Source: a virus. From it: 64,000 bases of DNA. Location: IMG/VR virus record IMGVR_UViG_3300030333_002409, positions 1 to 64,000 of that record; one strand, 5' to 3'. The translations under genes were made by a program, and so were the position numbers. The notes below the pieces were generated by a model. That model had not been told where the DNA came from. It saw nothing but the letters and a program-made list of their open reading frames with translations, and did no database searches. Shown here piece after piece: positions 9,777-41,335 of this stretch (the stretch's first letter is position 1; the number at the start of each line of letters is the position of its first letter).

Positions 9777-9792
9777 CCCTTATATCGGGTCT
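9777..9792 (+). promoter_or_regulatory. Copy 1 of the CCCTTATATCGGGTCT element (candidate phage RNAP promoter)
   Basis: The 16-nt core shared with 22238, 26793 and 33158 begins two bases after the stop codon of the giant gene. In this copy the flanks form an inverted repeat, CTTAAG-T-CCC-loop-GGG-T-CTTAAG (9771-9796), so it may also fold as a hairpin. It points toward the early genes. It is repeated, intergenic and in the same orientation as all genes, hence promoter-like; no start site is known. Confidence 0.55.
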
Positions 9793-9929
9793 TAAGATAT
9801 AACTTAGGTTTAGCTTAGGATTAAAAGTATATTATATTATTATATAAGGTAAGTATACCTAGGTACTTAGGATAACCTAGGTGGTACTTCCTAATGAATT
9901 CGTCGGTGAACTGAGGGGGATAAGTACCT
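9793..9929 (+). other. AT-rich intergenic segment with CCTAGG palindromes
   Basis: The stretch around 9820-9850 is almost pure A/T, followed by two CCTAGG palindromes and repeats of GTACTT/AAGTA type (9855-9895). It lies between the late operon and the early genes, beside a candidate phage promoter. That combination is what T7-type replication origins look like, but early host promoters could equally lie here. I see no clear -35/-10 pair. Confidence 0.35.
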
Positions 9930-10707: not shown

Positions 10708-10722
10708 CATGGCCGAAACCTC

Positions 10723-10744
10723 ATGCCGCCCTAACGGGCGGCAT
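10723..10744 (+). other. Intergenic hairpin (9 bp, TAAC loop)
   Basis: ATGCCGCCC and GGGCGGCAT pair perfectly around TAAC; outer AAACC/GGTTT extends the stem. There is no T-run, so an mRNA processing or stability element fits better than a terminator. Confidence 0.6.
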
Positions 10745-10809
10745 CGTGGTTTGTCGTGGATGAACTCACGGCACTGATGAGGCAGTTCCCTTAACTAAGG
10801 AGGTTCACT

Positions 10810-12373: not shown

Positions 12374-12745
12374 TCCCCTTCTTCGCTCGTCGCAGCGAGC
12401 CTAAACAGGCCTTAAGCTGCGAGCGGCCTGCCCTTCGGGGCAGGTGTGGCTTACCCGCTTCCTTTGGGAGCGGTGTGTCCGCTCTGTGAGGGCGGACTGG
12501 ACGTTCCCGCCTCCGTCCTATGGCGGAGGACCGCACGATGGCGGCGGTCTGTAGGAGCCACGAGGATCCCGTCTAAGGCCATCCCTCCCTAAGGAGGGGT
12601 ACGAGACCCCTTAGGGGCTTGGGAGCTCTCTATGGAGCTCTCCGGGCCTCTCAAGGCACGCTAGTGTGCGTGTGCGTGGGGGTCTGCTTTTTTCATCGTC
12701 CCTATGGGGACACAGCAGCCACCATAGGTGGCGTAAGGAGTTCAC
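12374..12745 (+). other. Chain of about twelve consecutive hairpins, no gene
   Basis: This 370-nt gene-free stretch is almost entirely small perfect or near-perfect stems: 12385-12400, 12427-12444 (CCTGCCC-TTCG-GGGCAGG), 12455-12473 (8 bp, TTT loop), 12477-12497 (8 bp), 12510-12529, 12529-12549, 12583-12598, 12607-12617, 12623-12640 (GAGCTC twice), 12656-12669, then six T at 12688-12693, 12698-12711 and 12719-12731 (CCACC-ATA-GGTGG). The T-run after the tenth stem may make part of it a terminator. The density is far above chance and suggests a structured RNA. Confidence 0.7.
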
Positions 12746-13275: not shown

Positions 13276-13360
13276 CCCTCCCTGAAAGGGGAGGGTGTCT
13301 ATTTGACCACTAACTCTTGGGTGGCTTGGTCAACCACCGAACCGTATGGTGCTAAGCACC
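13276..13360 (+). other. Three hairpins in the RNAP1 leader
   Basis: CCCTCCC-loop-GGGAGGG (13276-13295), TTGACC..CCAC/GTGG..GGTCAA (13303-13333) and GGTGC-TAA-GCACC (13348-13360) precede the RNAP1 ribosome site. The last has a 3-nt loop and contains the upstream ATG at 13346, which argues against that codon as the start. Confidence 0.6.
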
Positions 13361-13372
13361 AAGGAGGAACAA

Positions 13373-15475
13373 ATGAAATCATTTGATCTTCAACTCAAGC
13401 GTGAGGAGGCTCTTGTTGAGCCGACTCGTACTCGCTCCTTCCGTAACGCTCAGCGTGCCGGTGGAGACGGCGGCTATGCCGTCGCAGTCGTGGATGAAGT
13501 CGGTCGCTCGCTGGCTGCTGCTGTAAAGGCAGAGGTCTGTGAGGATTGGGCTGAGACCCAGCCTTGGTTCCCTATGTGGAAGGTGCTGTCACCTGACATT
13601 GTGGGTATCGAGATGATCGCTGCCATCCTCGATGTTGAAATCTTGGGTGAGTCTGCCCTCGAACAGGTCGTTCTCGACAGGTTCGTGGAAAGGCTCCGCA
13701 TTACCCTTGCTTTCCTCAGGGCAAAGCAGGAGAATGCAGCTCTCTTCGAGGAGCACACTCAGCGCCTGCGTAAGCGTGGTGCTAAGTGGGCAAGCCGTGA
13801 CTCTCAGGTCCGGTTCCTTGAGGTGACCGACACGGACTTGTCCGTTGTCGAACAAGATTTGCTCCGCCGGGTAGGGATGGTTGTGTTGGGGATCGCCGTT
13901 GATTCTGGACTCATCCAGAAGGATAAGGAGAACTCCAAGTTCTACTTGTCTCTGACCCGCTCATGGCGGCGGCGCATTCACCGGAACATGGAAGGGCGTG
14001 CCTTAGCACGACCCATTCGTCGACCGATGGTGCATCGTCCCAAGGACTGGAACGAGGCAGGTGTGGGTGGAGGATACCTGTCCAAATGGATGGCGTACAA
14101 CCTCGTTGATGGCGATAGCCTCGCCTCACCTATGGTGGTGGAGATGGCTAATCGGATGCAGTCCGTAGGGTACTGCGTCAATGAGCAGGTCCTGAAGCTC
14201 GCCTTGCGTGGGCTGAAGGGTTACCGCTCATCCAAAGATGCGGTTGATGGCAAGGTCCTTCGGGCAGAAGCCTCTCTCAAGGAGGCGGAAGCCTTGCTCA
14301 ACACCACCTTCTACTTCTGTGTCAAGTGTGACTACCGTGGTCGTGTGTACTACGTCAGTGACATCCTCAACCCTCAGGGTTGGGACCTTGACCGAGGGCT
14401 TCTCCGCTATGCGGAGGGGTGCGAACGCACGCCTGAGGCGTTGCGTTGGCTGAAGATTCACACTGCCAACAAGTTTGGCTTTGACAAGGAATCCTTCGAG
14501 GATCGTGTCAAGTGGTGTGATGAGCGATTCAACGAAATGCAGGCGGATCCCGTTGCCTTCTGGAAGGGCAACGACCCCGGCGACAAGGACCGTTGGTCAT
14601 CACTGGCTGCGGTACTCGACCTCGTTGGGGATGGTCCCATCACTACTCCGATTCAGGTCGACGCGACCTGCTCGGGACTTCAGCACTTGTCAGCAATGGC
14701 AGGTGATGAAGCAGTCGCCGTTGCGACTAATGTGATGCCGTCTGAAGACGGGATGCGTTGCGATCCTTACGTTGCCACCGCTGAAGCCTGCGGTCGGAAG
14801 CGATCTGAGGTCAAGCAAGCCGTGATGTGCATCCCCTATGGCATTAGCCTCTCGGGGATGATCGATCAGTTGATCGAAGAGGGCATTGAGCCCGACCGCC
14901 TCAAGGCTACAGTCTTGGCTGAAGACATCTGGGCCAGCTGTGAGGAGCTGATGAGTGGAGTACTCTCCATTATGAAGTTCCTCAAGGCTGGAGGACGAGC
15001 GTTGGCGGAAGCCGGTGTTCGTCCTCAGTGGACAACCCCTTCGGGGTTTGTCGCTGTGATGCCAACCGCTATCCTGAAGCGGCGCATCAGCATCATGGAT
15101 GCCAAAGGCAACATGGTGAAGACCCAGTTTGGTATTGAAGCAGCCGATGAGGTTGACCCCAACCAAGTTGTCCGTGGCATGGCTCCGAACTTCGTTCATA
15201 GCTATGATGCGGCACTGGTTGCCCTTGTGGTATCCCGTTGGGATGGACCAGTTACCTGCATCCATGACTGCTTCGCTACCACTGCGGACCAGATGGACGC
15301 ACTGCGAAATCTGATCCACGAGTGCTTCGTGGAACTGTATGGAAGCGATGCGATCCAGAAGGTACGCAATGAGTTTGTCCACTCAGCTCCGCTGGGGGTC
15401 AGCGTACCGCTGCCGCCAGTCCGGCGAGAGATGGACCTCAACCGCTCGCTCGAAAGCGAGTACATGTACTCCTGA
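13373..15475 (+). CDS. Single-subunit T7-like RNA polymerase 1 (RNAP1)
   Basis: 700 residues; T7 RNAP has 883. The start at 13373 follows AAGGAGG with 5-nt spacing; an in-frame ATG at 13346 lies in a hairpin. All catalytic motifs are visible: DYRGRVYYV (T7 DWRGR), motif A VDATCSGLQH with Asp430, motif B with Lys481 and Tyr489 (K-x7-YG), and motif C HDCFAT with Asp632. The C-terminus LESEYMYS matches the T7 LESDFAFA foot. The shorter length comes from a reduced N-terminal domain and 40 or so residues missing between motifs A and B. Codons are GC-rich, unlike RNAP2. It is probably transcribed early by the host polymerase and then transcribes phage promoters; which ones is unknown. Confidence 0.95.
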   Translation: MKSFDLQLKREEALVEPTRTRSFRNAQRAGGDGGYAVAVVDEVGRSLAAAVKAEVCEDWAETQPWFPMWKVLSPDIVGIEMIAAILDVEILGESALEQVVLDRFVERLRITLAFLRAKQENAALFEEHTQRLRKRGAKWASRDSQVRFLEVTDTDLSVVEQDLLRRVGMVVLGIAVDSGLIQKDKENSKFYLSLTRSWRRRIHRNMEGRALARPIRRPMVHRPKDWNEAGVGGGYLSKWMAYNLVDGDSLASPMVVEMANRMQSVGYCVNEQVLKLALRGLKGYRSSKDAVDGKVLRAEASLKEAEALLNTTFYFCVKCDYRGRVYYVSDILNPQGWDLDRGLLRYAEGCERTPEALRWLKIHTANKFGFDKESFEDRVKWCDERFNEMQADPVAFWKGNDPGDKDRWSSLAAVLDLVGDGPITTPIQVDATCSGLQHLSAMAGDEAVAVATNVMPSEDGMRCDPYVATAEACGRKRSEVKQAVMCIPYGISLSGMIDQLIEEGIEPDRLKATVLAEDIWASCEELMSGVLSIMKFLKAGGRALAEAGVRPQWTTPSGFVAVMPTAILKRRISIMDAKGNMVKTQFGIEAADEVDPNQVVRGMAPNFVHSYDAALVALVVSRWDGPVTCIHDCFATTADQMDALRNLIHECFVELYGSDAIQKVRNEFVHSAPLGVSVPLPPVRREMDLNRSLESEYMYS

Positions 15476-15545
15476 TTGAACGGGGTGCGTTACGGGGCTC
15501 CTCCCTAGGGGGGAGCCTCGATACCTGTGCCGTTCAACCAACAAA

Positions 15546-15569
15546 GGTGGGCAAAGCCCACCAATAGAA
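15546..15569 (+). repeat. Hairpin-AATAGAA unit 1 (possible hairpin promoter)
   Basis: GGTGGGC-AAA-GCCCACC forms a perfect 7-bp stem with a 3-nt loop and is followed at once by AATAGAA. An AGAAAGAC/GTCTTTCT hairpin comes directly after, so a transcript starting here would carry a 5' stem-loop. Confidence 0.65.
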
Positions 15570-15689
15570 AGACGTATGTGTCTTTCTAAGGGAAGGGGCA
15601 TAGGGTACGGGGATACCTTCATCTCATGATGAGGAGCCCCCGCCCTACTTCGGCGGACGGTGGGATGCAAAACATCTCGGCGGACCGGA

Positions 15690-15713
15690 GGTGACCAAAG
15701 GTCACCAATAGAA
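15690..15713 (+). repeat. Hairpin-AATAGAA unit 2
   Basis: GGTGACC-AAA-GGTCACC, then AATAGAAGAG. Relative to units 1 and 3 two stem positions changed on both arms, so pairing is preserved. The AATAGAAGAG end resembles the SP6 promoter start region (ATAGAAGAG). Confidence 0.65.
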
Positions 15714-15720
15714 GAGGGGC

Positions 15721-15775
15721 AGTGTTCGACTACTTACCTGTGGATTGCAGGGTCAACACTTAGATAATCCACAGG
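15721..15775 (+). ncRNA. Predicted H-type pseudoknot (or two-state RNA switch)
   Basis: AGTGTT-C-GAC (15721-15730) pairs with GTCAACACT (15752-15760), 9 bp with one bulge; CCTGTGGATT (15737-15746) pairs perfectly with AATCCACAGG (15766-15775), 10 bp. The two helices interleave (a-b-a'-b'), with loops of 6, 5 and 5 nt. Either a compact pseudoknot forms or the helices are mutually exclusive. It begins 7 nt after unit 2's AATAGAA, so it would be the 5' end of a transcript starting there. Confidence 0.55.
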
Positions 15776-15857
15776 CTACCCCAGACGGCAGAGCACGGGT
15801 TTGTTGGAGGCTGGGTGCGGCGGACGTAGACCTGCCAAGAGTAACAAAGGTCTAGCG

Positions 15858-15881
15858 GGTGGGCAGAGCCCACCAATAGAA
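15858..15881 (+). repeat. Hairpin-AATAGAA unit 3
   Basis: GGTGGGC-AGA-GCCCACC followed by AATAGAAGA. The stem is identical to unit 1; the loop differs by one base. A GGTTG/CAACC palindrome and TGGAG/CTCCA hairpin follow downstream (about 15900-15940). Confidence 0.65.
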
Positions 15882-16025
15882 GAACTCGTAGCAGTGACGG
15901 TTGTACAACCTAGGGACTGTAATGGAGTTTGCTCCACCTTTAGCGGGGTGGACTGAACGACGCCTCGGCAGAGGTACAGGTCCTGCACATGGACCCGTGT
16001 TAACTTATTCCCGATGTGCCGGGTT

Positions 16026-16065
16026 AGCTGATATCTGTAGGTAGGAAATCAGCTGGACAATAGGA
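16026..16065 (+). repeat. Degenerate hairpin-AATAGGA unit 4
   Basis: AGCTGAT (16026-16032) pairs with ATCAGCT (16048-16054) with a 15-nt loop, then GGAC-AATAGGAGA. It keeps the AATAG and the preceding stem but not the tight loop, so membership in the family is uncertain. Confidence 0.35.
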
Positions 16066-16176
16066 GACGCCTCCCAGTGGGGAACTGGGTCATCACTCCC
16101 CAACTTTCTGCATCCAAGGAATATCAGACTTGACTCTGGTATCCCTTAGGTACAGAACCTAGAAAGGATGTGCATT

Positions 16177-16380
16177 ATGCGTATCAAAGTAGAAATGCTG
16201 GCTCCTTGGTCAGTCGCTGTCTATGTGGACGGTGAGATTTCAGATTGTTTCGACTGTGCGAACGATGCGGTCGAGCATATCCGTGAACTAACGGATGACC
16301 CCGCCAACGTGAGCGTCACGTTTGACGAGGGATTCCAATGGCAATGTGAGAAAGCCGCAAGGCGTGGCTGGAAGGCTTGA
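16177..16380 (+). CDS. Small hypothetical protein
   Basis: 67 residues (MRIKVEMLAPWSVAVYVDGE...). The ATG at 16177 lies 8 nt after AAGGA; an in-frame ATG at 16168 is too close to the ribosome site. Short beta-alpha protein with two Cys close together (CFDC). No family recognised. First gene of the coupled small-gene cluster that runs to 21241. Confidence 0.65.
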   Translation: MRIKVEMLAPWSVAVYVDGEISDCFDCANDAVEHIRELTDDPANVSVTFDEGFQWQCEKAARRGWKA

Positions 16381-16382
16381 CT

Positions 16383-16517
16383 ATGTTTAGTGAAGAAGAT
16401 ATCGTGTACCTTGAGTACTGTGGTTTGAACGAGTACGAAGATTTCCTGAAGGAGTGCCAGCACTGGTTGCTGGAGAAGGAACTTCCTAATGATGATGGAG
16501 AGTTTGAAGATGAGTGA
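16383..16517 (+). CDS. Very small acidic protein
   Basis: 44 residues, strongly acidic (MFSEEDIVYLEYCGLNEYED... ending GEFEDE), mostly helical by appearance. It starts 2 nt after the previous stop, has no strong ribosome site of its own and overlaps the next start, so translation is probably coupled. No family recognised. Confidence 0.55.
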   Translation: MFSEEDIVYLEYCGLNEYEDFLKECQHWLLEKELPNDDGEFEDE

Positions 16518-16650
16518 GTATAAAGATTCCGTAGTGAAGGGCATTGCCCTTAATCCTTGCGTGAAGCCTGAGACTTCGAAGGAAGCGAAGGCTGAGTGCA
16601 AGAAGCGTGGCATCAAACTTACTAAGCCGAAGGTGAAAGCCAATGCTTAA
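16510..16650 (+). CDS. Very small basic protein
   Basis: 46 residues, Lys-rich (KAECKKRGIKLTKPKVKANA at the C-terminus), overlapping the acidic gene before it by 8 nt and the next gene by 8 nt. Opposite charge to its neighbour could mean a complex; that is speculation. No family recognised. Confidence 0.55.
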   Translation: MSEYKDSVVKGIALNPCVKPETSKEAKAECKKRGIKLTKPKVKANA

Positions 16651-16966
16651 GAGTTACGATGGGTTTGAGAAGGTGGGGGAGCTGAGCTACCCGTATGGTC
16701 CAGCCAAACCGTGGTTCAAGTTCCACACCCCTCAAACTATAACCAATCAGTTCGATGAACGAGTAGTAGTAGATTACTTCTTGATTTCCACTGTGTCTCA
16801 CCTTGATTATGACGGGACAGACCACTGGGAAACGATGGTATTTCCTTGCGATGAACACGGAGAGGTCCCCGAAGGGGATTACTCTGGCATCTATGCAGAA
16901 GTTTCTGCGTGGAAACCTAGTGAAACAGAAGTATTGAGTAGTTTTATTTCAACTATTAAGGAGTGA
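16643..16966 (+). CDS. Hypothetical protein
   Basis: 107 residues, beta-rich with many aromatics (YPYGPAKPWFKFHTP, VVVDYFLISTVSHLDYDG), acidic overall. The start overlaps the previous gene's end. No family recognised. Part of the coupled early cluster. Confidence 0.65.
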   Translation: MLKSYDGFEKVGELSYPYGPAKPWFKFHTPQTITNQFDERVVVDYFLISTVSHLDYDGTDHWETMVFPCDEHGEVPEGDYSGIYAEVSAWKPSETEVLSSFISTIKE

Positions 16967-16969
16967 CAA

Positions 16970-17299
16970 ATGAATACACCAGTTAGTGTACAGTTTTACT
17001 TTGACTTGGAGACTGACGATGGCGTGTCCCTTACAGGGGAAGGCTCAATGGACGGTACTCTTGAGTATGACCGGGGAGATTACTATAATCCACCATATAC
17101 CGACATTAACCCAGACCTTGGGACATGTTGCATCGAAGGAATATGGATGGACGAGGACGAGAACGAAATTCCGATTGCGATGACCGGGAGGGAAGCATAT
17201 GATTTGCTCGAAGCCTATGGGTGGAACTATGATATGCTTGAAGTATCCGACTGGGATGAGGTTGAGTATGACTATTGTAGAGAGGATGATTATTCATGA
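16970..17299 (+). CDS. Highly acidic hypothetical protein (DNA-mimic candidate)
   Basis: 109 residues with about 17 Asp and 13 Glu against three Arg and no Lys, so net charge near -27. Aromatics are spread between the acids (WMDEDENEI, SDWDEVEYDYCREDDYS). AAGGAG precedes the ATG. Charge and early position recall Ocr-type DNA mimics, but there is no sequence match to one that I recognise. Confidence 0.65.
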   Translation: MNTPVSVQFYFDLETDDGVSLTGEGSMDGTLEYDRGDYYNPPYTDINPDLGTCCIEGIWMDEDENEIPIAMTGREAYDLLEAYGWNYDMLEVSDWDEVEYDYCREDDYS

Positions 17300-17565
17300 G
17301 TGCTATATACGAGATTACTGATATTACTACGACCCATGTGTCACGGACTCACTGGTACATGGAAGTACAACAAGAGACGGAAGCCAGTGACTACCAAATG
17401 GAAGCTGCTGGAGAAGCAGTGATTGATAGTATTGCTGATGATGTTTGGTCCGACCTTGATCCCCTGATTGAGGGTTGGATTGATAGATATGGTGAGCGAT
17501 ACAAGGACGATCTTAAAGATGCAGTCAAAGAGTGGCTGGAAAGGACTGATGAAGACTATGAGTGA
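17296..17565 (+). CDS. Acidic hypothetical protein
   Basis: 89 residues; starts in an ATGA overlap with the preceding stop, so translation is likely coupled. The N-terminal half looks beta (YEITDITTTHVSRTHWYMEVQQE), the C-terminal half is an acidic amphipathic helix (WIDRYGERYKDDLKDAVKEW). No family recognised. Confidence 0.65.
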   Translation: MSAIYEITDITTTHVSRTHWYMEVQQETEASDYQMEAAGEAVIDSIADDVWSDLDPLIEGWIDRYGERYKDDLKDAVKEWLERTDEDYE

Positions 17566-17728
17566 ACTAGATAGAGATGGCGATGTGATTGATTGGCGTA
17601 GTGTAGCATGCTCTTTCTACCATGCATGTGGTGGTTGGCCAGCGGGATGCGGAAATTTAGAAAGCGTTGATAACCTGTGTGAATACTACAGCTTTAACTT
17701 TGATGAGGAGGAAGAAGACGATGAGTAG
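17558..17728 (+). CDS. Small acidic protein
   Basis: 56 residues (MSELDRDGDVIDWRSVACSF...) ending in a run of acids (DEEEEDDE). The start at 17558 has GGAAAGGA upstream and overlaps the previous gene by 8 nt; the frame is open further upstream, but only as a shadow of that gene. The motif HACGGWPAGCGNLESVDNLC has four Cys in the full gene, possibly a metal site. No family recognised. Confidence 0.6.
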   Translation: MSELDRDGDVIDWRSVACSFYHACGGWPAGCGNLESVDNLCEYYSFNFDEEEEDDE

Positions 17729-17954
17729 TTGGAAAGAAATACATAAAGATAATATGATTGTAACTGTGTGCGATGAAGAAACATGGGGAGACTACGATAA
17801 TGCAACAGTAATTATCTACCCATCGGAACAGCAGGATATGCTTGACACAGATTGTGGAATCCCCCGGGATGAAGATGAGTTTGAGTACGAAGAGTACGAC
17901 CTCGAAGAGTATGTTCAGATGCGTATTGCCCACTGGGTAGAGGAGAACATGTAA
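17721..17954 (+). CDS. Acidic hypothetical protein
   Basis: 77 residues starting MSSWKEIHKDNMIVTVCDE. The start has GAGGAGG upstream inside the previous gene's acidic tail codons. The C-terminal half is very acidic (DEDEFEYEEYDLEEYVQM). No family recognised; same style as its neighbours at 16970-18190. Confidence 0.6.
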   Translation: MSSWKEIHKDNMIVTVCDEETWGDYDNATVIIYPSEQQDMLDTDCGIPRDEDEFEYEEYDLEEYVQMRIAHWVEENM

Positions 17955-18190
17955 TGAAAGAGTATCAGATTCTAATTGACGTTACCTCCACTGCATGGGA
18001 AACCTGTAGTGCATGGGTAGAAGCAAACAGTCTTGAAGAAGCTATCGAAAAGTTTGAAGAGAGTCCCTTTGATTATGATTGGGATGGTTGGGAAACATGG
18101 GATAGTGAAACAAGGCACTGGGAAGTAAGGGCAGAAACTTGGGAGACATTAAATGGCAATCAAAGTGAACATGAAAGTACAACTGAGTGA
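17954..18190 (+). CDS. Trp- and acid-rich small protein
   Basis: 78 residues with a beta-alpha start (EYQILIDVTSTAWETCSAWVEANSLEEAIEKFE), which looks like a small ferredoxin-like half, then an unusual stretch dense in Trp, Asp and Glu (DYDWDGWETWDSE). ATG overlaps the previous TAA. No family recognised. Confidence 0.6.
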   Translation: MKEYQILIDVTSTAWETCSAWVEANSLEEAIEKFEESPFDYDWDGWETWDSETRHWEVRAETWETLNGNQSEHESTTE

Positions 18191-18380
18191 TGAGCTACTG
18201 AGTAAGATGCGTGAGCTTGGGCTAATCCATGACTGGGCTGAAGATGGTATGGTATGCCCCTTCTTTGCTGAGCATGATACTCAGTGGACACATATCGAAG
18301 ACATTCTGTGGTATATTCTGTGGCTAAAAGAAACTGCGGATGACAAGGAGGTGTGGTACAATGATAACTGTGCTTTCTAG
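18153..18380 (+). CDS. Small hypothetical protein
   Basis: 75 residues (MAIKVNMKVQLSDELLSKMRELGL...). Start with GGGAGA at good spacing, 38 nt inside the previous gene. The middle contains CPFFAEHDTQWTHIEDILWYILW, possibly an amphipathic or membrane-touching helix. No family recognised. Confidence 0.6.
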   Translation: MAIKVNMKVQLSDELLSKMRELGLIHDWAEDGMVCPFFAEHDTQWTHIEDILWYILWLKETADDKEVWYNDNCAF

Positions 18381-18894
18381 TGGACGAACAGGTAGTAGTT
18401 TGGTAATGCAAACTCTTTCTATCTGGGGATACGGCGTTATTGGCGACCGCTTTGGTCACCCTGTGCATAATCCTAAGTTCAATAGACATGGGTACTTTGA
18501 AGTAGAACATGAGTTACTCCCTGAGTATCTTCATCGTGGATATGAGCCCGACAATCCCGTCATTAAGGTGGGAGGCTACGGTTTGCAATGGATGAATGAT
18601 AACTGGGGTAAGCCCAGTGTCTTGATCCATACAAAGCGTGAGTTCATGGGGCAGGTTGCTTCCCTTAGGAAGTGGTCCGGCTTACATCCCGGGGCTGTGA
18701 TGGATAGCATACGGAATGATGAGAAAATGTTCGCTAACTTTAAGCGAGATCATTCTGAGATTCCTGTGTGTGTCCTTCATCTTAGTGATTTAGAAAGTAA
18801 TCCTCAAGGTTACTTCGAAAGGTTGGCTGAAGCAGTAGACTATCGTGGCTGCATTGCAACAGCCCTATTAAATAAGGAGCTAGGCTATGCCTAA
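18361..18894 (+). CDS. Sulfotransferase-like P-loop protein
   Basis: 177 residues. The start at 18361 follows AAGGAGG by 9 nt and overlaps the previous gene by 20 nt. VLSSGRTGSSLV (residues 4-15) matches the 5'-phosphosulfate-binding loop of sulfotransferases (S-x-x-R-S/T-G-S/T-S). HTKREFMGQVASLRKW near residue 85 matches the 3'-phosphate-binding region (R-D/H-P-R-E-x-x-x-S-x). Known family members transfer sulfate from PAPS. Possible targets are host surface sugars or small molecules; no evidence here decides. It is shorter than typical enzymes (about 250-300 residues), so activity is uncertain. Confidence 0.65.
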   Translation: MITVLSSGRTGSSLVMQTLSIWGYGVIGDRFGHPVHNPKFNRHGYFEVEHELLPEYLHRGYEPDNPVIKVGGYGLQWMNDNWGKPSVLIHTKREFMGQVASLRKWSGLHPGAVMDSIRNDEKMFANFKRDHSEIPVCVLHLSDLESNPQGYFERLAEAVDYRGCIATALLNKELGYA

Positions 18895-19351
18895 TTGGTG
18901 TTTGAATGAGGTCAGGGTATATTTCCCTGATGTAGAAACAAGAGATGAATTTCTCCGGGCGGTTGAGGGAGGAAGGAAAGTTACAATGGCTCTTGGTGGC
19001 GAAGAGATTAAACAAATGGAGCATACTACTATGTTGTTTAATTCTATTCTTCCTGAACCTAAGCATACAATCGAAGGGGAAGGAGTAGATCAGAAGTGGA
19101 TAGGAGAAAACGGCGAGGAGTATGACTGGTACAACTGGCGGTGTCAGAATTGGGGAACCAAGTGGGAGCCAGACATCATTCACTTTGATCGAGAAGATGA
19201 TACTACCGTATACTGGGAGATGTACACAGCTTGGTGTCCGCCCGACGGAATCTACAATAAGCTGTGTGAGGATTGGGAAGACAAGGACGTTACTATTAAC
19301 TGGTTCTATCGTGAAGATGGCATGCAAATCGCAGGCTGGTTGCCTGAGTAA
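18887..19351 (+). CDS. Api92-like (DUF1281-type ferredoxin-fold) protein
   Basis: 154 residues beginning MPNWCLNEVRV, with the late motif YNWRCQNWGTKWEPD and TAWCPPDGIYNKL, the pattern I associate with Api92-like phage/plasmid proteins (N-terminal PNWC, central NWGTKW, aromatic-Pro-Pro near the end). Its function in that family is unknown. The ATG overlaps the previous gene's end; AAGGAG lies upstream. Confidence 0.7.
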   Translation: MPNWCLNEVRVYFPDVETRDEFLRAVEGGRKVTMALGGEEIKQMEHTTMLFNSILPEPKHTIEGEGVDQKWIGENGEEYDWYNWRCQNWGTKWEPDIIHFDREDDTTVYWEMYTAWCPPDGIYNKLCEDWEDKDVTINWFYREDGMQIAGWLPE

Positions 19352-19361
19352 GGAGACAACA

Positions 19362-19604
19362 ATGGGTATGATGAAGAAGCTTACAGTTCTAGATATTGGG
19401 GATGAGATTGCTATTAAGAATTCTGATAGCGAATGCCCTGATACCTACGTTGGAAAGGTAATGGACATCTTGGATTACTGGGACATGGATATATATCTCG
19501 TTGAGTACTTTGCTGAAGGAGAAACCAAAACTACTTCTGTTTGTGCGGCTGATATTGATTTGATCAAACAAAAGGAACTTTACTATGGAAACCGAACTGA
19601 TTAA
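19362..19604 (+). CDS. Small hypothetical protein
   Basis: 80 residues starting MGMMKKLTVLDIGDEIAIKN. AAGGAG precedes the ATG by 8 nt; the open frame reaches further upstream only as a shadow of the Api92-like gene. It looks like a small beta-barrel of SH3/KOW type (GDEIAI...YVGKVMDILDYWDMDIYLVEYF), which is inference from pattern. Confidence 0.65.
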   Translation: MGMMKKLTVLDIGDEIAIKNSDSECPDTYVGKVMDILDYWDMDIYLVEYFAEGETKTTSVCAADIDLIKQKELYYGNRTD

Positions 19605-19728
19605 AATGAGTATGCAAGAAGTAAAGAATACTTACGTCTTGCTTGGATGTTTGTTAGGTGTAGGATGTGGAGTCTTGTTGTCTTCACTGGTGATGCTTAT
19701 TTGGACTGATGGAAGGAGACATAAATAA
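19585..19728 (+). CDS. Single-pass small membrane protein
   Basis: 47 residues. A short polar head (METELIKMSMQEVKNTY) is followed by one long hydrophobic helix (VLLGCLLGVGCGVLLSSLVMLIW) and a basic tail (DGRRHK), so the N-terminus is probably outside. AAGGAA lies at good spacing; overlaps the previous gene by 20 nt and the next by 1 nt. Could be a superinfection or envelope-acting early protein; unknown. Confidence 0.65.
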   Translation: METELIKMSMQEVKNTYVLLGCLLGVGCGVLLSSLVMLIWTDGRRHK

Positions 19729-20720
19729 TGTCACACGAAATGTATGAGAACGATAGTGCTATGTACTACAAAGAGAAGGCATGGCACGGGCTGGGTACTG
19801 TGGTTGAGAAAGCATACAACCCACGCCAAGCTTTGGAGATGGCAGGTCTTGACTGGACTGTTGAGCAGTCCGATTACTTGCAGGTCCACCTCCCCGATGG
19901 GGACAGCGTGATTGACCACAAGCATCGTGCTAATGTGCGATCAGATACTCGAGACATTCTTGGGTGGGTAGGTACACAGTATCAGCCGCTTCAGAACCAC
20001 GAGCTAGCAGAAATTGCTTACAGCCTTAACGGAGAAGACTCTGTTGTTGAGTCTTGCGGTTCACTGTTTAATGGTGGACAAGTATACTTCTTGATTCGAG
20101 GTGAGTCCTTCGATACAGGCAACGGCAACGACACAGTGGAGCGATACATGCTGCTGACTAACGGGCATGACGGCAAGCTCCGTGCTACTGCTAAGCCTAC
20201 GTCTGTCCGTGTGGTGTGTAATAACACGCTGACGATGGCACTGAACCAGCAAGGGCAGAGCTTTGGCTTTACCCACAACGGAGACATGGCTGTTAAGATT
20301 CAGGAAGCGAAGGAAGCTATGGCTATGTTCCGTGAGACTGGTCAGTTCTTCAAGGATGCTGTTAGCGTACTTAACTACCGACAGGTCACGACCGAAAGCG
20401 TTCAGAAGTTCTGGACTGAGATCTATCAGGATCTTGTTGAAGAAATTCCTATGAATCCTGAGAACAAAGAAGAAGAGAGAGCTAAGAAGAAGGCAAAGGT
20501 TACCCTGTCTACATGGGCAGAAACCTTTGACAACGAACGCCAAGTTGCTGGGACTAATATGTGGAATGCATTCAATGCGGTAACAAATTGGATGGACCAC
20601 AAGACTCGGTACAACGGCACGCCTGAGAAGAAAGCTGAGAATCGTTTGCACTCTAACCTTTGGGGTAAGAGTGAGACGAAGAAGAAGCAAGTATTCAAGG
20701 CAGCACTGGCAGCGTCATGA
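19728..20720 (+). CDS. DUF932 / phage-plasmid conserved protein
   Basis: 330 residues. The N-terminus (AMYYKEKAWHGLGTVV) and the downstream GWVGTQYQPLQNHELAEI and TNGHDGKLRATAKPTSVRVVCNNTL are the hallmarks of the DUF932 / TIGR03299 family, common in phages and plasmids, of unknown function. Full length for the family. ATG overlaps the preceding TAA (TAATG), and its end overlaps the next gene (ATGA). The C-terminus is Lys-rich. Confidence 0.85.
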   Translation: MSHEMYENDSAMYYKEKAWHGLGTVVEKAYNPRQALEMAGLDWTVEQSDYLQVHLPDGDSVIDHKHRANVRSDTRDILGWVGTQYQPLQNHELAEIAYSLNGEDSVVESCGSLFNGGQVYFLIRGESFDTGNGNDTVERYMLLTNGHDGKLRATAKPTSVRVVCNNTLTMALNQQGQSFGFTHNGDMAVKIQEAKEAMAMFRETGQFFKDAVSVLNYRQVTTESVQKFWTEIYQDLVEEIPMNPENKEEERAKKKAKVTLSTWAETFDNERQVAGTNMWNAFNAVTNWMDHKTRYNGTPEKKAENRLHSNLWGKSETKKKQVFKAALAAS

Positions 20721-21241
20721 GTAGGCTCATTGATGAGCTTATGAATGTACACGCCGAGCTCGCAAGCAGGGAGAACTTTAGCTCCCTGCTTGTGGGCCAG
20801 TGTGCTTTAGTAGAAAAGGATTACATATCTTCTATTGCGGCTGCGTTACTTACTCTTGGTGGTAGGCATGGGCCTACTGTACAAACAGTTAAGTTTCTAT
20901 CTAAGATAGGAGACTTTGATCCTACAGTGTACTATAAACATGGTCTAGTTATCCCCGGATGGGGCTCAGCTTTTCATAAAGGCGAGCCTGACCCGCATTT
21001 CGATACACTAGATGGCTTCTTGTTCGAAGATAATAACTCTCTTTGGGCAAAGATTAAGGAGTATACTAATAAGATTCACGATACAGGTAAGATACTGTAC
21101 CCTAACGCTGCTTGCTATACCGCAGCTGTTGCTATAACAGAAGGGATACCAGCAGAAGTTTCTCCCTACCTACTCATTAAAGGTAGGCTAGATGTGTGGA
21201 CAGATCTTTACCTAAAGAATAAAGGAACCAGACTTCCGTAG
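20717..21241 (+). CDS. Reduced citrate-synthase-like protein
   Basis: 174 residues. Three blocks appear in citrate-synthase order: GGRHGPTVQ (51 = His of the HGGA block), VIPGWGSAFHKGEPDPHF (78-95, as VPGFGHRVYKxxDPR) and LYPNAACYTAAVAITEGIP (127-145, as PNVDFYSGLVxxxLGIP), then IKGRLDVWTD near the end (as AIARTxGWxAH). Citrate synthase has about 400 residues, so this is roughly the small domain. The catalytic His of PGFGH is Ser84 and the catalytic Asp of PNVDF is Ala132, so catalysis is unlikely. It could bind CoA or a metabolic enzyme. The stop codon lies inside the following tRNA. Confidence 0.65.
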   Translation: MSRLIDELMNVHAELASRENFSSLLVGQCALVEKDYISSIAAALLTLGGRHGPTVQTVKFLSKIGDFDPTVYYKHGLVIPGWGSAFHKGEPDPHFDTLDGFLFEDNNSLWAKIKEYTNKIHDTGKILYPNAACYTAAVAITEGIPAEVSPYLLIKGRLDVWTDLYLKNKGTRLP

Positions 21242-21305
21242 CTCAGTTGGATAGAGCAACGGTCTTCTAAACCGTAGGTCGCTGGTTCGAGTCCAGCCGG
21301 AAGTG
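21232..21305 (+). tRNA. tRNA-Arg(UCU)
   Basis: Full cloverleaf: acceptor ACTTCCG/CGGAAGT, D arm GCTC...GAGC, anticodon stem ACGGT/ACCGT with loop CTTCTAA (anticodon TCT), T arm GCTGG-TTCGAGT-CCAGC, discriminator G. CCA is not encoded. Reads AGA, a codon abundant in the AT-richer late genes. Overlaps the end of the upstream CDS by 10 nt. Confidence 0.95.
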
Positions 21306-21306
21306 T

Positions 21307-21522
21307 ATGTTAGGGTACAGAGAGGATCAGCGGATCCAGAAGGTAAGCAGAACGCGAGCGAGCTTCCCCTTTCTGTATCCTAACAAAGACTCTGCCGAGT
21401 ACAAAGCCTTTGGTGACCTTGATTGTCGTACCCTCCGATGGTACATATGTAAAGGCAAGATAGGTGAAGATGATGTAAGATTCATTACGGTAGTGATTGT
21501 CGCACGGTTACTCAAGGGATAA
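21307..21522 (+). CDS. Small basic hypothetical protein between tRNAs
   Basis: 71 residues, basic at the start (MLGYREDQRIQKVSRTRASF), with GDLDCRTLRWYICKGKIGEDDVRFI in the middle. It starts 2 nt after the tRNA and has only a weak purine stretch (the tRNA's own 3' end, CGGAAG) as a ribosome site. It may be translated, but it could also be a chance frame. Confidence 0.45.
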   Translation: MLGYREDQRIQKVSRTRASFPFLYPNKDSAEYKAFGDLDCRTLRWYICKGKIGEDDVRFITVVIVARLLKG

Positions 21523-21590
21523 GACCCTGCCTTCTAACGGAGGTAACAGCGTTTCAATCGGAGACACAGTGGCTTGTGTCCAGAGTCAAT

Positions 21591-21664
21591 GGCTCCGTAG
21601 CCCAACAGGCAGAGGCAGTGGACTTAAAATCCATACAGTGTGGGTTCGAATCCCACCGGAGCTA
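21591..21664 (+). tRNA. tRNA-Leu(UAA), class I shape
   Basis: Acceptor GGCTCCG/CGGAGCT (first pair G-U), D arm GCC...GGC, anticodon arm GTGGA-CTTAAAA-TCCAT (anticodon TAA), a 5-nt variable loop ACAGT, T arm GTGGG-TTCGAAT-CCCAC, discriminator A. Bacterial Leu tRNAs normally have a long variable arm; this one does not. Would read UUA. Confidence 0.9.
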
Positions 21665-21797
21665 TTTGTGTTGACTAGTTAGGTATCCTGCTATACTATA
21701 CCCCAGAGATACCCGCATATGCAAGGTGTAGGTTGTCAACACATTGGATACACGAAGTGCTTGATCACATACATGATACTGCGGGTTGTATCCAGCT
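21665..21797 (+). promoter_or_regulatory. Inter-tRNA spacer with inverted repeats and a weak sigma70-like promoter
   Basis: GTGTTGAC (21668-21675) and GTCAACAC (21735-21742) form an 8-bp inverted repeat enclosing GGTATC/GATACC; GGATAC/GTATCC (21746-21793) forms another. TTGACT (21671) with TACTAT at 17-nt spacing, or TATACT at 15 nt, resembles -35/-10 boxes. A processed spacer RNA is equally possible. Confidence 0.4.
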
Positions 21798-21870
21798 GGG
21801 CTGGTAGCTCAGCGGTCAGAGCACACGACTCATAATCGTTCGGTCGCCGGTTCAAATCCGGCCCAGCCTA
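21798..21870 (+). tRNA. tRNA with CAU anticodon, probably Ile2 (AUA-reading)
   Basis: Acceptor GGGCTGG/CCAGCCT, D arm GCTC...GAGC, anticodon arm around CTCATAA, T arm GCCGG-TTCAAAT-CCGGC, discriminator A. The stretch from the anticodon to the T arm (GACTCATAATCG..GGTCGC.GG) resembles E. coli Ile2 tRNA more than Met tRNAs, so lysidine modification and AUA decoding are likely, not proven. Confidence 0.85.
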
Positions 21871-21883
21871 TTAAGGAGATAGC

Positions 21884-22048
21884 ATGAAAGAAGAAGAAAA
21901 ATCTAAAGGACTTGGAGATACTGTGTCTAAGGTTATTAAAAAAATTACTAGAGGAAAGGTATCAGAGTGCGAGCCTTGTCGAAAGAGACGGGAGGCATTA
22001 AACAAAGCACTGCCATATAGGCAGGATAAAGATAAGGAGGAGTCATGA
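21884..22048 (+). CDS. Small basic protein
   Basis: 54 residues, starting after AAGGAGAT 3' of the last tRNA. Lys/Glu-rich with a CEPC pair (SECEPCRKRREALNKALP). Possibly a nucleic-acid or metal-binding fragment; no family recognised. Overlaps the next start (ATGA). Confidence 0.65.
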   Translation: MKEEEKSKGLGDTVSKVIKKITRGKVSECEPCRKRREALNKALPYRQDKDKEES

Positions 22049-22215
22049 TGGCAGGTAAAGGAGATACTTATCGTAAGGTGGACCCTGATAAGTGGGAGAA
22101 GGGGTGGGAATCAGCCTTCGGAAAGATAACTCAAGAAGAAAAGACTGAAGAAACTGATAGGGCTCTTCAAGAAAAGATGACTAACAACATGAAGGCGGAG
22201 GATTTAAACGACTGA
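22045..22215 (+). CDS. Small protein with AFGKITQEE motif
   Basis: 56 residues with AAGGAGG just before the start. WESAFGKITQEEKTEE matches WDLAFGKITQEEFNEL in the protein at 25111, so the two are paralogues sharing a short motif of SHOCT-like appearance. Function unknown. It ends just before the RNAP2 promoter element. Confidence 0.7.
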   Translation: MMAGKGDTYRKVDPDKWEKGWESAFGKITQEEKTEETDRALQEKMTNNMKAEDLND

Positions 22216-22237
22216 TAGTACAGGAGTTATGCCAACG

Positions 22238-22269
22238 CCCTTATATCGGGTCTATGGATGCAATCCATA
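22238..22269 (+). promoter_or_regulatory. Copy 2 of CCCTTATATCGGGTCT plus 5' hairpin, before RNAP2
   Basis: The core CCCTTATATCGGGTCT occupies 22238-22253. It is followed by TATGGAT-GCA-ATCCATA (22253-22269), a perfect 7-bp stem with a 3-nt loop, so transcripts from here would begin with a stable hairpin. Located 31 nt before the RNAP2 start codon. Confidence 0.7.
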
Positions 22270-22299
22270 CACCTCAGAATGAATAACAAGGAGATGATT

Positions 22300-24747
22300 A
22301 TGTACAAATGGAATAGTATTCCCCAGCAAGAACGTGATGATAGAAAAAATCTTCAGGTTGTTTGGGAAGAAGATCTCCTTTCTATGGGCATTAATAAATA
22401 TTGGAGTGATTTTAATAGAGCTCCAGATGAGAGTGAACCTGAACAACAACTGTTAGATGCTAGTGTTATACACTTACAGCCTCTCTTCCAAGTTTGGATT
22501 GACGAGGCTGCTAAGAGACCTAGGACTCCGAGCTGGTTGATTCCTCTACTCAGTATTGGGTCATTCAAAGCAGCAGATATTGTTATTAGAAATGTTCTTA
22601 GATTAACACTAGAAGGATCTGCTTCTGGTGGGGTGGCTTCTTCCTTTAGGAAGGAACCAAGAGCACAAACTATTGCTTCTTGTATTGCAGATGATGTTAT
22701 TAATATTGTCTCGTATCAAGCAAGCAAAGAACAATTTAGAGATGATTGGAAAAGACAGTCTAAGTTTACTAAGAACTGGTCACCCAAGAGATGCTTAGCC
22801 TTTACTAAAAAGTTAGGAAACATTCCTCAATTACCTAGGAAAGGAAAGCAAGACTTCGGACATGCTATGCTTAGGATAGCACTGCTATCTGATATCTTAG
22901 TGGCGGACAAGGTTAGAATAAAACCAAACTCACGGTGCAAAACAAAGGAGCATATATATGTCCGATTAAATGATAAGATTTTGGAGGAGCTGCACACTAA
23001 GCACCACCTTCTAGAACTCTCTTCTCTCATATATCGACCAATGATTGCTCCTCCTTTGGACCACCTTCCAGAAGAACCCGGAGGTAATTACTTACGGTGG
23101 ATTAGAAAACCTACAGTTAAACGATACGTAAACAATAGTAGGGTCGAAGAGGATAAGATCACACAGCACTGCTCAGAGCTAGTACTAAAGGGTCTGAACT
23201 CTCTTCAACAAACTGAGTGGTCAATCAATGAACCGGTCCTCCGAGTAATGGAGGACTTCTTTGAAGGCAACACAGCTTTAGCTAATCTCCCGACCTACGA
23301 CTTTGAAGGATTCTCCATGAGGAAGTATCCTCAAGAGGGTAGTAAGGTTGAGCAGGGTCGGTGGATGGCTGAGCGTGAAGAGAAGTGGGGTAAATGGTAT
23401 AGGGATGAGCAAAAGCGGGGGCGTATGTTAGTTAGAATGCATCTAGCTAATCAACTTATCCCGCATGGATGGTTCTACCACCCGTACAGCCTAGACTTTA
23501 GAGGAAGAGCATATACAGCATGCGAACTTCTATCCCCACAAGGTGCGGACTTTGATCGAGGGCTTCTGTTGTTTGCGAATGCTAAGAAGCAAACCCCAAG
23601 GGGATTGTATTGGCTTAAGGTTCACACGGCTAATCTCTTTGATCAAGATAAACTTCCTTATGATGAAAGGGTGGCATGGGTTGATGAGAATATGCCCATG
23701 CTTATGCGTATTGCTGAAAACCCTTATGATAATAAGGAGTGGGTTTCCGATAAAGAAAAGAAGAACCCTTCCTTCCAGAGATTGGCAGCGTGCTTTGAGC
23801 TAGCCAGAAAGGATGGGCTTACTCAACTTCCTGTCCAACTCGATGGGGCTTGTAACGGATCCCAACACTGGTCAGTTATTATGGGGGATGAGACTGTAGC
23901 GGAACTTACTAATGTTATTGGAAGCCACTCTCCTCAAGATCTCTATGGATTTGTAGCTCAGCAAACCACTGACATCATCGCTAAGAACGAAGATGATCTT
24001 GATTGGTTTGTTACATTTATGGATCACTGGCAAGAAGGCATTGAACGTGCTGTAGTCAAGAGACCTACAATGTGTGATGCTTATGGCCTAACCTTCTACG
24101 GTATTCAGAAGTATCTTAAATTGGAGGGACACCTTGATTGGGTTCCTCGTGATGATAGAGGTGGTGCTGTAGTCGAGATGGCAAGAGCTGTCCAGCAGGG
24201 ACTAGGCATGACTCTAGATATGCCTAACAAAGGAAAGGATTGGTTAAAGGAAGTAGCTTCAGTGGCCAACCTATCAGAGAAACATTTAATCTGGACTACT
24301 CCCTCAGGATTTATTGTCGAACATGTGTATCAGCCTATTAGACAACGCCGGTCTTACACCGAGTTGTTTAATCAAAAGAAATTTGAACTGGTCTTTGCAA
24401 ACTATTACGATGGTGTTAACGCAAACGGACAGGAGCTTGGGATTGCTCCGAACTTTATTCACAGTTTAGATGCTGCCCATATGTTCTTAACTCTTATTAG
24501 ATTACTACAAAAGAACGTTGATTCATTTTCCATGATTCATGACTCCTATGGTGTACATGCACCTGATGTGGACATCATGAATGAATGTTTACGTCAAGCG
24601 TTCATTGAAATACATAAGGAGAATGTACTTGAAACGTTCAAGCAGGATGTCGAGGAGTACCTCGGCATCGTCGCTCCGCCAATCCCCAATCCAGCCGGAG
24701 GACTTGACCCCGCCTGTGTCCTCGACTCCGAATACTTCTTTAGTTAA
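22300..24747 (+). CDS. Single-subunit T7-like RNA polymerase 2 (RNAP2)
   Basis: 815 residues, closer in length to T7 RNAP (883). The ATG at 22300 has AAGGAG at ideal spacing; the in-frame ATG at 22258 lies in the promoter hairpin. Motifs: SLDFRGRAYTACELLSPQG (T7 DWRGR block), motif A LDGACNGSQHWS with Asp515, motif B with Lys587 and Tyr595 (VVKRPTMCDAYG), motif C IHDSYG with Asp748, and a C-terminus LDSEYFFS like the T7 foot. Codon use is AT-richer than RNAP1. Directly preceded by the repeated 16-nt element, so it may be switched on by RNAP1 or autoregulated. Likely the polymerase of the middle or late genes. Confidence 0.95.
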   Translation: MYKWNSIPQQERDDRKNLQVVWEEDLLSMGINKYWSDFNRAPDESEPEQQLLDASVIHLQPLFQVWIDEAAKRPRTPSWLIPLLSIGSFKAADIVIRNVLRLTLEGSASGGVASSFRKEPRAQTIASCIADDVINIVSYQASKEQFRDDWKRQSKFTKNWSPKRCLAFTKKLGNIPQLPRKGKQDFGHAMLRIALLSDILVADKVRIKPNSRCKTKEHIYVRLNDKILEELHTKHHLLELSSLIYRPMIAPPLDHLPEEPGGNYLRWIRKPTVKRYVNNSRVEEDKITQHCSELVLKGLNSLQQTEWSINEPVLRVMEDFFEGNTALANLPTYDFEGFSMRKYPQEGSKVEQGRWMAEREEKWGKWYRDEQKRGRMLVRMHLANQLIPHGWFYHPYSLDFRGRAYTACELLSPQGADFDRGLLLFANAKKQTPRGLYWLKVHTANLFDQDKLPYDERVAWVDENMPMLMRIAENPYDNKEWVSDKEKKNPSFQRLAACFELARKDGLTQLPVQLDGACNGSQHWSVIMGDETVAELTNVIGSHSPQDLYGFVAQQTTDIIAKNEDDLDWFVTFMDHWQEGIERAVVKRPTMCDAYGLTFYGIQKYLKLEGHLDWVPRDDRGGAVVEMARAVQQGLGMTLDMPNKGKDWLKEVASVANLSEKHLIWTTPSGFIVEHVYQPIRQRRSYTELFNQKKFELVFANYYDGVNANGQELGIAPNFIHSLDAAHMFLTLIRLLQKNVDSFSMIHDSYGVHAPDVDIMNECLRQAFIEIHKENVLETFKQDVEEYLGIVAPPIPNPAGGLDPACVLDSEYFFS

Positions 24748-26577: not shown

Positions 26578-26798
26578 CAGAAGAAAAACAAAAGTTTCAA
26601 GTAAATGAAAAGTTTAAGGACTATACTGATCAGGGAATCTCTGCTCCACAAGTCTTGACTTTTCTAGATAACATTCAGATCATGCTTAGGGCTATTGCTG
26701 GGGATATTGAAATGGCTATTAATAATATTCAAGCCACTAAACCCGAGCCTGCACCTGAAGACAAGGAAGAAAGTAAGGAAGAAGTAGACGCGACGTAA
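26574..26798 (+). CDS. Small acidic protein
   Basis: 74 residues overlapping the phosphoesterase stop (ATGA). A helical middle (LTFLDNIQIMLRAIAGDIEMAINNIQ) is followed by a Lys/Glu/Pro tail. No family recognised; the gene ends at the next promoter element. Confidence 0.65.
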   Translation: MTEEKQKFQVNEKFKDYTDQGISAPQVLTFLDNIQIMLRAIAGDIEMAINNIQATKPEPAPEDKEESKEEVDAT

Positions 26799-26824
26799 TA
26801 TCGGGTCTATGGATACAATCCATA
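26796..26824 (+). promoter_or_regulatory. Copy 3 of TATCGGGTCT element plus 5' hairpin, before SSB operon
   Basis: TAATATCGGGTCT (26796-26808), then TATGGAT-ACA-ATCCATA (26808-26824), the same 7-bp stem as at 22253 with one loop base changed. The upstream CCC of the other copies is absent here. It overlaps the stop of the preceding gene and lies 30 nt before the SSB start. Confidence 0.7.
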
Positions 26825-32392: not shown

Positions 32393-33164
32393 TTTAGCAG
32401 TACTGGATGGAGACATTCTAGTTCACCGAGCTGCTTGGTGGGCCGATGGGGAGGGCATTGATATGCTTGAACCTAGGCTACACCAAGATATTGACAACTG
32501 GAGTGCGGGGCATAGTAAGTACATGGTTGCTTTCTCGTGTAAACGTGAAGACAATTTTCGCCGTGACTATTTCCCCCTGTATAAAGTCAATAGGGCCGGT
32601 AGACCAGAGCCTGAGTGCTTAAGCTACGCCATCGAAATAGTGGAGGATAGGTGTACCACAGTTCGTAGGCCGAGGATCGAAGCCGACGATATCCTAGGAA
32701 TGATGGCTTCTGCTGGCCTAGCAACCGCAGTTACGATTGATAAGGATCTTCAATGCTGTCCCGGATGGCACTGGAATCCCGAGAAAGAAGAAGCCCCTCA
32801 CTATGTCAGTGAGGAAAAGGCGGACCTCAATCTCTATAAACAGTGGATATCAGGAGACTTAACAGATAATATCTTTGGGGTATGGAACTGGGGACCAAGG
32901 AAAGCGGAGAAACTTTTAGAGAACACGCCCCGGGAGGAGTGGGATCAGGTAGTTGGAGAACTATTTCGAGAGAATCCACGCCCTGAGCACAAAAGGATAG
33001 ATGAAATTGACCGGATGGATGGAGATGAGTATGCTCTTTCCCAAGCAATTTGCGTCAGAATCCTGCGAGATGGTGAATTTAACAAGAAAAAGGAGGAAGT
33101 TAAGCTATGGGTTCCAGACCTCAATCCACAAGTAAGCGAAGACATCCACGCCCAAAGCCCTTAA
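32379..33164 (+). CDS. 5'-3' exonuclease (gp6-like, FEN family)
   Basis: 261 residues from ATG 32379 (GAGG upstream; three earlier in-frame ATGs are possible). LDGDILVHRAAW, RPRIEADDILGMMAS, TIDKDLQCCPG and GDLTDNIFG...GPRKAEKLL carry the acidic metal ligands and helix-hairpin-helix of the family. Removes RNA primers and degrades host DNA in T7. Its stop codon lies inside promoter element copy 4. Confidence 0.9.
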   Translation: MKKPDLAVLDGDILVHRAAWWADGEGIDMLEPRLHQDIDNWSAGHSKYMVAFSCKREDNFRRDYFPLYKVNRAGRPEPECLSYAIEIVEDRCTTVRRPRIEADDILGMMASAGLATAVTIDKDLQCCPGWHWNPEKEEAPHYVSEEKADLNLYKQWISGDLTDNIFGVWNWGPRKAEKLLENTPREEWDQVVGELFRENPRPEHKRIDEIDRMDGDEYALSQAICVRILRDGEFNKKKEEVKLWVPDLNPQVSEDIHAQSP

Positions 33165-41301: not shown

Positions 41302-41335
41302 CCCCTCCCCTTTCGGGGGGAGGGGTACTTTTTTT
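41302..41335 (+). terminator. Rho-independent terminator after capsid gene
   Basis: CCCCTCCCC (41302-41310) pairs with GGGGAGGGG (41317-41325), 9 bp with a 6-nt loop, followed by TACTTTTTTT. This is the best classical terminator in the window and sits where T7 has T-phi. Confidence 0.9.

Follow-up and report, generated by a model that had tools for sequence, protein, structure and literature searches.

Two complete, divergent T7-type RNA polymerases in an uncultured phage, with a putative T7-like promoter family that appears to fit the second enzyme better

An uncultured virus of bacteria was found to encode two complete and divergent T7-type single-subunit RNA polymerases (RNAPs), RNAP1 in an early gene block and RNAP2 in a middle block, and the same pair was present in the same order in two related viral genomes. 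The stretch analysed here (the window) comprises bases 1-64000 of the 66,697-base IMG/VR record IMGVR_UViG_3300030333_002409 (G000), the first ~98 bases of which are repeated at the record end, indicating circular closure. The phage encodes a T7-like portal, a helicase-primase, a family A DNA polymerase and a gp2.5-like single-stranded DNA-binding protein. With T7 and SP6 (Autographiviridae) it shares these proteins, the catalytic core of the RNAP and a GGG after the AT-rich part of the promoter, whereas T7 and SP6 have a single RNAP and this phage has two. Our best explanation, to which as a whole we give slightly better than an even chance, is that the phage is a member of the T7 supergroup that uses a relay of two single-subunit RNAPs of its own, with RNAP2 acting on CCCTnnnnnCGGGT promoters.

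RNAP1 was located at 13346-15475 (+ strand; PF00940 E 8e-48, phrog_414 E 8e-114). A preliminary description of this DNA had given it 700 aa; a start at 13373 with that length is possible, but homology with the relative G001 extends to 13346/13349 and favours a protein of 709 aa. RNAP2 was located at 22300-24747 (+ strand; ORF open from 22258; PF00940 E 1.9e-84, phrog_414 E 1.5e-151, aligned along the whole protein, 8-816 of 816), and its length of 815 aa stands, as the G001 relative starts at the Met at 22300. Both ORFs are intact, and their PF00940 matches lie far above the cut-off. We then aligned both proteins with the enzymes of T7, SP6 and further phages to check the catalytic residues. 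The results showed that both enzymes retained D421/R425, D537 (motif A), Y571, R627/K631/Y639/G640 (motif B), H784 and H811/D812 (motif C) in T7 numbering, together with the C-terminal foot (SEYMYS, SEYFFS), which confirmed the motifs A, B and C, the DxRGR residues and the foot reported earlier. RNAP2 has motifs A, B, C and DxxGR, an N-terminal domain and a specificity loop, and is the more T7-like enzyme of the pair. RNAP1 has motifs A, B, C and DxxGR with the catalytic residues that define a T7-type single-subunit RNAP. Of the two elements expected for work on duplex promoters, it has the specificity loop, while most of its intercalating hairpin is missing. RNAP1 owes its short length to reductions in two places, the region of the intercalating hairpin and the part between motifs A and B, and these reductions may point to a need for a cofactor. 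In the alignment, N4 RNAPII and the early enzymes encoded by other phages with two RNAPs shared the short A-to-B stretch of RNAP1, and the N4 RNAPII structure 6dt7 was matched by RNAP1, not by RNAP2.

The two enzymes are 26% identical, which rules out a recent duplication of one gene, and their specificity loops are unlike each other. They also lie in different surroundings, with a GC content of 0.57 around RNAP1 in the early block versus 0.43 around RNAP2 in the middle block, as had been noticed before. The preliminary description held that an inactive copy, a lost specificity loop or recent identical duplicates would undo the idea of a cascade; as far as the sequence tells, none of these was encountered. 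The relative G001 (IMGVR_UViG_3300038307_000123, 51 kb) carries orthologues with 87% identity to RNAP1 and 80% identity to RNAP2. The relative G003 (IMGVR_UViG_3300025066_000003, 68 kb, repeated ends) carries a 705-aa frame, which follows a giant ORF of 3,808 aa within a block of higher GC content, and an 822-aa frame ~6.5 kb farther downstream. When viral contigs were scanned with whole alignments of RNAP1, RNAP2 and the giant protein described below, G001 was the sole match, the peptides used having fallen in variable parts; a short query around motif A of RNAP2 recovered six further viral records. A relative of RNAP2 alone was found in five other records, near a contig end, where the absence of RNAP1 is not judgeable. 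A scan of species genomes with RNAP1 gave no match.

One T7-like promoter family (class A, CCCTnnnnnCGGGT) was found in the window, with four sites. The repeated element CCCTTATATCGGGTCTATG and its relatives occurred at 9777, 22238, 26793 and 33158 with at most 3 mismatches and were absent from 100 shuffles, so the promoter-like element previously noted before RNAP2 is real. The first candidate (9777-9795, + strand) adjoins the giant ORF's stop codon and heads the early block; it stands in the same place in G001 (31641) and G003 (35713). The second (22238-22256, + strand) lies before RNAP2 and is followed by a hairpin, TATGGATGCAATCCATA (22253-22269), again in the same place in G001 and G003. 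The third (26793-26811, + strand) precedes the gp2.5-like DNA-binding protein gene, has the same place in G001, and shows a compensatory change in its hairpin there. The fourth (33158-33176, + strand) lies at the end of the exonuclease gene, and in G003 a related site follows, at the same distance of ~1.9 kb, the ORF that occupies the position of the DNA polymerase. The corresponding sites have the sequence CCCTATAATCGGGTCT in G001; in G003, CCTAGAAACGGGTATAGTA was found both directly after the giant ORF and directly upstream of RNAP2. Class A positions are thus conserved in the three genomes, and the bases just upstream of the GGG change together within each genome; this combination is the mark of a putative polymerase-specific promoter family. 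An AT-rich stretch with CCTAGGT/CTTAGG repeats at 9790-9900, behind the first site and conserved in G001, is a replication origin candidate that resembles the T7 primary origin, and by this analogy the class A site at 9777 may serve replication.

In T7, the intercalating hairpin contacts the promoter part just upstream of the GGG. We compared this hairpin between G000 and G001 and found 19/33 identical residues in RNAP2 versus 21/23 in RNAP1; the specificity loops differed about equally little (34/37 and 33/37). Because the intercalating hairpin of RNAP2 diverged with the promoters while that of RNAP1 did not, we assigned class A to RNAP2. From these few sites and one comparison, class A promoters appear to fit RNAP2 better than RNAP1. 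The different promoter classes suggested earlier for the two enzymes did not emerge, as the single T7-type family was found at the early-block head and before RNAP2 alike.

A two-step cascade is plausible from the gene order, and the timing and activity of the enzymes that we infer are as follows. The early block would be transcribed first, by the host polymerase or a virion enzyme. RNAP1 would be made first and would carry transcription through the block behind it, up to RNAP2. RNAP2, made in the middle block, would transcribe from CCCTnnnnnCGGGT promoters, and the promoter before its own gene would let it amplify its own synthesis in a positive feedback; further class A sites would act at the early-block head and among the replication genes, and late genes would probably be read by RNAP2 run-through. 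The intact catalytic residues, the order of the pair in three genomes, the covariation of promoter bases and the same layout in public phages argue for this relay. Against it, the class A site at the early-block head does not suit a strict early/middle split unless it serves replication or boosts late expression, the class A promoters found in the window all lie outside the structural region, and no T7-type promoter class was left in the window for RNAP1. A k-mer search for promoter sets in public two-RNAP phages gave nothing clear.

The first step of the relay bears on a giant protein encoded by the same genome. The ORFs at 61501-66597 and 1-9774 join across the circular junction into one virion-type protein of 4,956 aa, of which 1-9774 (+ strand) encodes the C-terminal two thirds, and its orthologue in G001 is a 4,715-aa ORF. 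We found a motif A-like FDKSFNGKHHFHAMLLD from residue 2046 (D2047, ~nt 1042), a motif B-like RAFWKMPIMVRLYSAG from residue 2166 (R2166/K2170/Y2178, ~nt 1399-1437) and a HELAH zincin (HExxH) motif at residue 3483. Motif A followed by motif B, the order that marks an N4-like virion RNAP, is conserved in G001. We compared the giant with two profiles, one built from ten N4-type virion polymerases and the other from 24 T7-type enzymes. Both gave the same stretch as best match, with motifs A, DxY and B in register and scores of 35.7 (N4-type) and 37.5 (T7-type), while 120 shuffle controls each had means of 19.7 and 20.9 and maxima of 26.0 and 29.7, and seven other large virion proteins scored 15.7-23.3. 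The profile comparison did not locate the motif C aspartate or the DxxGR/TxxGR arginine in the giant, and neither phmmer of the N4 virion RNAP (vRNAP) against the giants nor tblastn found homology. AlphaFold2 gave the central region of the giant a pLDDT of 35; RNAP1, a certain polymerase, was equally low with two sequences (pLDDT 32).

We lean towards regarding this polymerase-like stretch as a relic or as a case of extreme divergence. A variant of the relay would settle its first step in this way: the stretch is decaying, the host RNAP starts transcription, and only RNAP1 and RNAP2 are active. We give this variant somewhat less than an even chance. The motifs are patchy, with A and B in G000 and G001, B alone in the 4,674-aa giant of record G005 (KRPVMTRSYGAG at its best match, with no motif A seen) and none of them in the G003 giant, which suits decay. 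However, G000 and G001 share the motif A and B residues despite an identity of only ~35-45% between their giants, and sigma-70-like sites in the early region were not clearly above chance.

Distinctly less probable is that both RNAPs read class A promoters, so that RNAP1 only primes RNAP2 and is then redundant, with a single promoter class. The finding of one T7-like family, before RNAP2 and at the early-block head, is what such an arrangement would give. It is at odds with the unlike specificity loops of the two enzymes, and with the specificity loop and intercalating hairpin of RNAP1, which hardly differ between G000 and G001, unlike the promoters of the two genomes.

Behind RNAP1 lie ~700 bases without a clear gene (15476-16170), for which structure was predicted and no Rfam family was found; pieces of it are conserved in G001 (e.g. 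15703-15793, 90%). This region holds three hairpin elements (15546-15573, 15690-15716 and 15858-15885, all + strand) of the form GGTGGGC-AAA-GCCCACC-AATAGAA, that is, a 7-bp stem and a 3-nt loop followed by AATAGAA. G001, the sole other carrier found in an IMG/VR search, also has three copies, the third directly before a ribosome-binding site and gene, and the stems show compensatory changes between copies. Early hairpin promoters of N4-like phages were taken to have a 5-7 bp stem, a 3-nt loop, a 4-nt spacer, a G start and a purine loop on the template strand. The geometry fits (stem, four bases, then G), but the purine loop is on the opposite strand from N4. The hairpins could act as promoters, for RNAP1 or for a virion polymerase, or could have a part in RNA processing.

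N4 (Schitoviridae; vRNAP gp50, RNAPII gp15/gp16) resembles the window phage in having more than one T7-family RNAP, a giant virion protein that contains HExxH in addition to motifs A and B, and a short second RNAP; RNAPII of N4 is split into two subunits, whereas RNAP1 is in one piece. The contrast that had been drawn with N4-like phages, which have split or virion polymerases, is therefore less sharp, given the giant with N4-like polymerase motifs in the same genome. The vRNAP of N4 contains motif C and its hairpin promoter is proven, and N4 late genes use the host RNAP (PMC4496689). We consider it unlikely that the window phage works in three tiers, with a virion polymerase domain in the 4,956-aa protein starting at entry as N4 vRNAP does, RNAP1 acting as the counterpart of N4 RNAPII before RNAP2, and the hairpins serving as promoters of the first or second enzyme. 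Such a scheme would agree with the profile scores above all 120 shuffles each, with the motif B of the G005 giant, with the 6dt7 match of RNAP1 and with the N4-like hairpin spacing. It would also agree with the HExxH motif downstream of the polymerase-like stretch in the giants of G000, G001 and G005, as N4 vRNAP likewise has HExxH downstream (PMC12633501). Against it stand the motifs missing from the giants of G000, G003 and G005, the failure of phmmer and tblastn to find homology, the strand of the purine loop, and the position of the hairpins behind RNAP1, not at the early-block head.

Self-cleaving ribozymes were also found in the early block. A Pistol ribozyme lies between two early genes upstream of RNAP1 (12385-12451, + strand; Rfam RF02679, 65.8 bits, gathering 34.5), and a type II hammerhead candidate lies between two early genes (10711-10791, + strand; RF02276, 30.8 bits, below the gathering threshold of 37, with the core present). 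G001 has three hammerheads above gathering and one Pistol (7495-7560, 7817-7884, 8129-8196 and 9636-9704), whose starts all lie no more than ~12 nt from a stop codon. The two ribozymes of the window likewise come directly after stop codons. The early message of T7 is cut by host RNase III, and by analogy that of the window phage may be cut between genes by ribozymes. A little less likely even than the three-tier scheme is a fully host-independent relay of three enzymes, in which a domain of the injected virion protein of ~5,000 aa would start transcription, RNAP1 would read the hairpins behind its own gene, RNAP2 would read CCCTnnnnnCGGGT, and the hammerhead and Pistol would cut the early message. 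A chimeric assembly, with the GC-rich RNAP1 block coming from another virus, would account for the rise in GC content at 10-16 kb of the window (0.44 to 0.57), but is ruled out for practical purposes because G001 and G003, from other samples, carry the same pair in the same order, and the early block of G003 is also GC-richer (0.48 vs 0.40).

We built a phylogeny that included both proteins. With the new relatives included, RNAP1 and RNAP2 of the window lineage formed one clade of nine (98/98), while the early and the middle enzymes of Vibrio and Alteromonas phages each formed a separate clade (100/100 in both cases). The supported (starred) branches require at least two origins of the early enzyme and do not give common descent of the early RNAPs; in a smaller first tree, grouping all early enzymes in a single clade could not be rejected (p-AU 0.24). 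Two separate inventions of the two-RNAP layout are thus likely, not proven, and the window pair probably descends from an old duplication inside its own lineage, although the RNAP1 branches are long and this duplication may be a tree artefact of the long RNAP1 branch.

The two-RNAP design is not unique to the window. That T7-like phages normally have one RNAP holds as a rule, with exceptions found by tblastn among public isolates: the Vibrio K378 group, phiV141 and JSF7, and the Alteromonas phages H4/4 and R8W. PhPV1.2 gave three matching places and lies outside the four genomes inspected for RNAP lengths (K378, JSF7, phiV141 and H4/4), in which the lengths are 673-708 aa for the early and 796-802 aa for the middle enzyme. 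This layout of an early ~700-aa and a middle ~800-aa enzyme in Tawavirus and Foturvirus phages is also that of the window. The Tawavirus/K378-group Vibrio phages (JSF7 NC_047741, phiV141 MT227925, K378 OZ196075) have early enzymes of 673-698 aa and middle enzymes of 801-802 aa, but their genomes are 43-48 kb; their middle enzyme falls together with those of MedPE and Rhizobium phages, their early enzyme has its own branch, and the window pair falls in a separate clade. Foturvirus (Alteromonas phages vB_AspP-H4/4 and R8W) has a 708-aa early and a 796-aa middle enzyme and a ribonucleotide reductase, but its RNAPs belong to other clades and its largest virion ORFs are ~2,000 aa or less. The window has a phage ribonucleotide reductase (phrog_367) at 34299-36194. 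In open-access text, we found no paper discussing the two RNAPs of Tawavirus or Foturvirus, and the text of the R8W paper does not mention the polymerases.

Two intact RNAPs in the same early-short, middle-long layout, which apparently evolved at least twice, offer a natural experiment on how polymerases and promoters split after duplication, and the pair with its promoters could become orthogonal transcription tools. Since isolates with this layout have been described (JSF7, phiV141, H4/4), a test of the cascade idea does not require the uncultured phage. The giant protein and the ribozymes are side findings that may equal the two RNAPs in worth.

Three further features of the window were recorded. 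Three tRNA genes (Arg-TCT, Leu-TAA and Met-CAT) lie before RNAP2 at 21232-21871, and T4-like phages have sequences that match part of the Arg tRNA with up to 97% identity. A strong hairpin with an 11-bp stem at 20763-20792 is conserved in G001. A second strong hairpin, at 41302-41325, follows the gene for the major head protein and resembles a terminator, with a C-rich stem and then a run of T.
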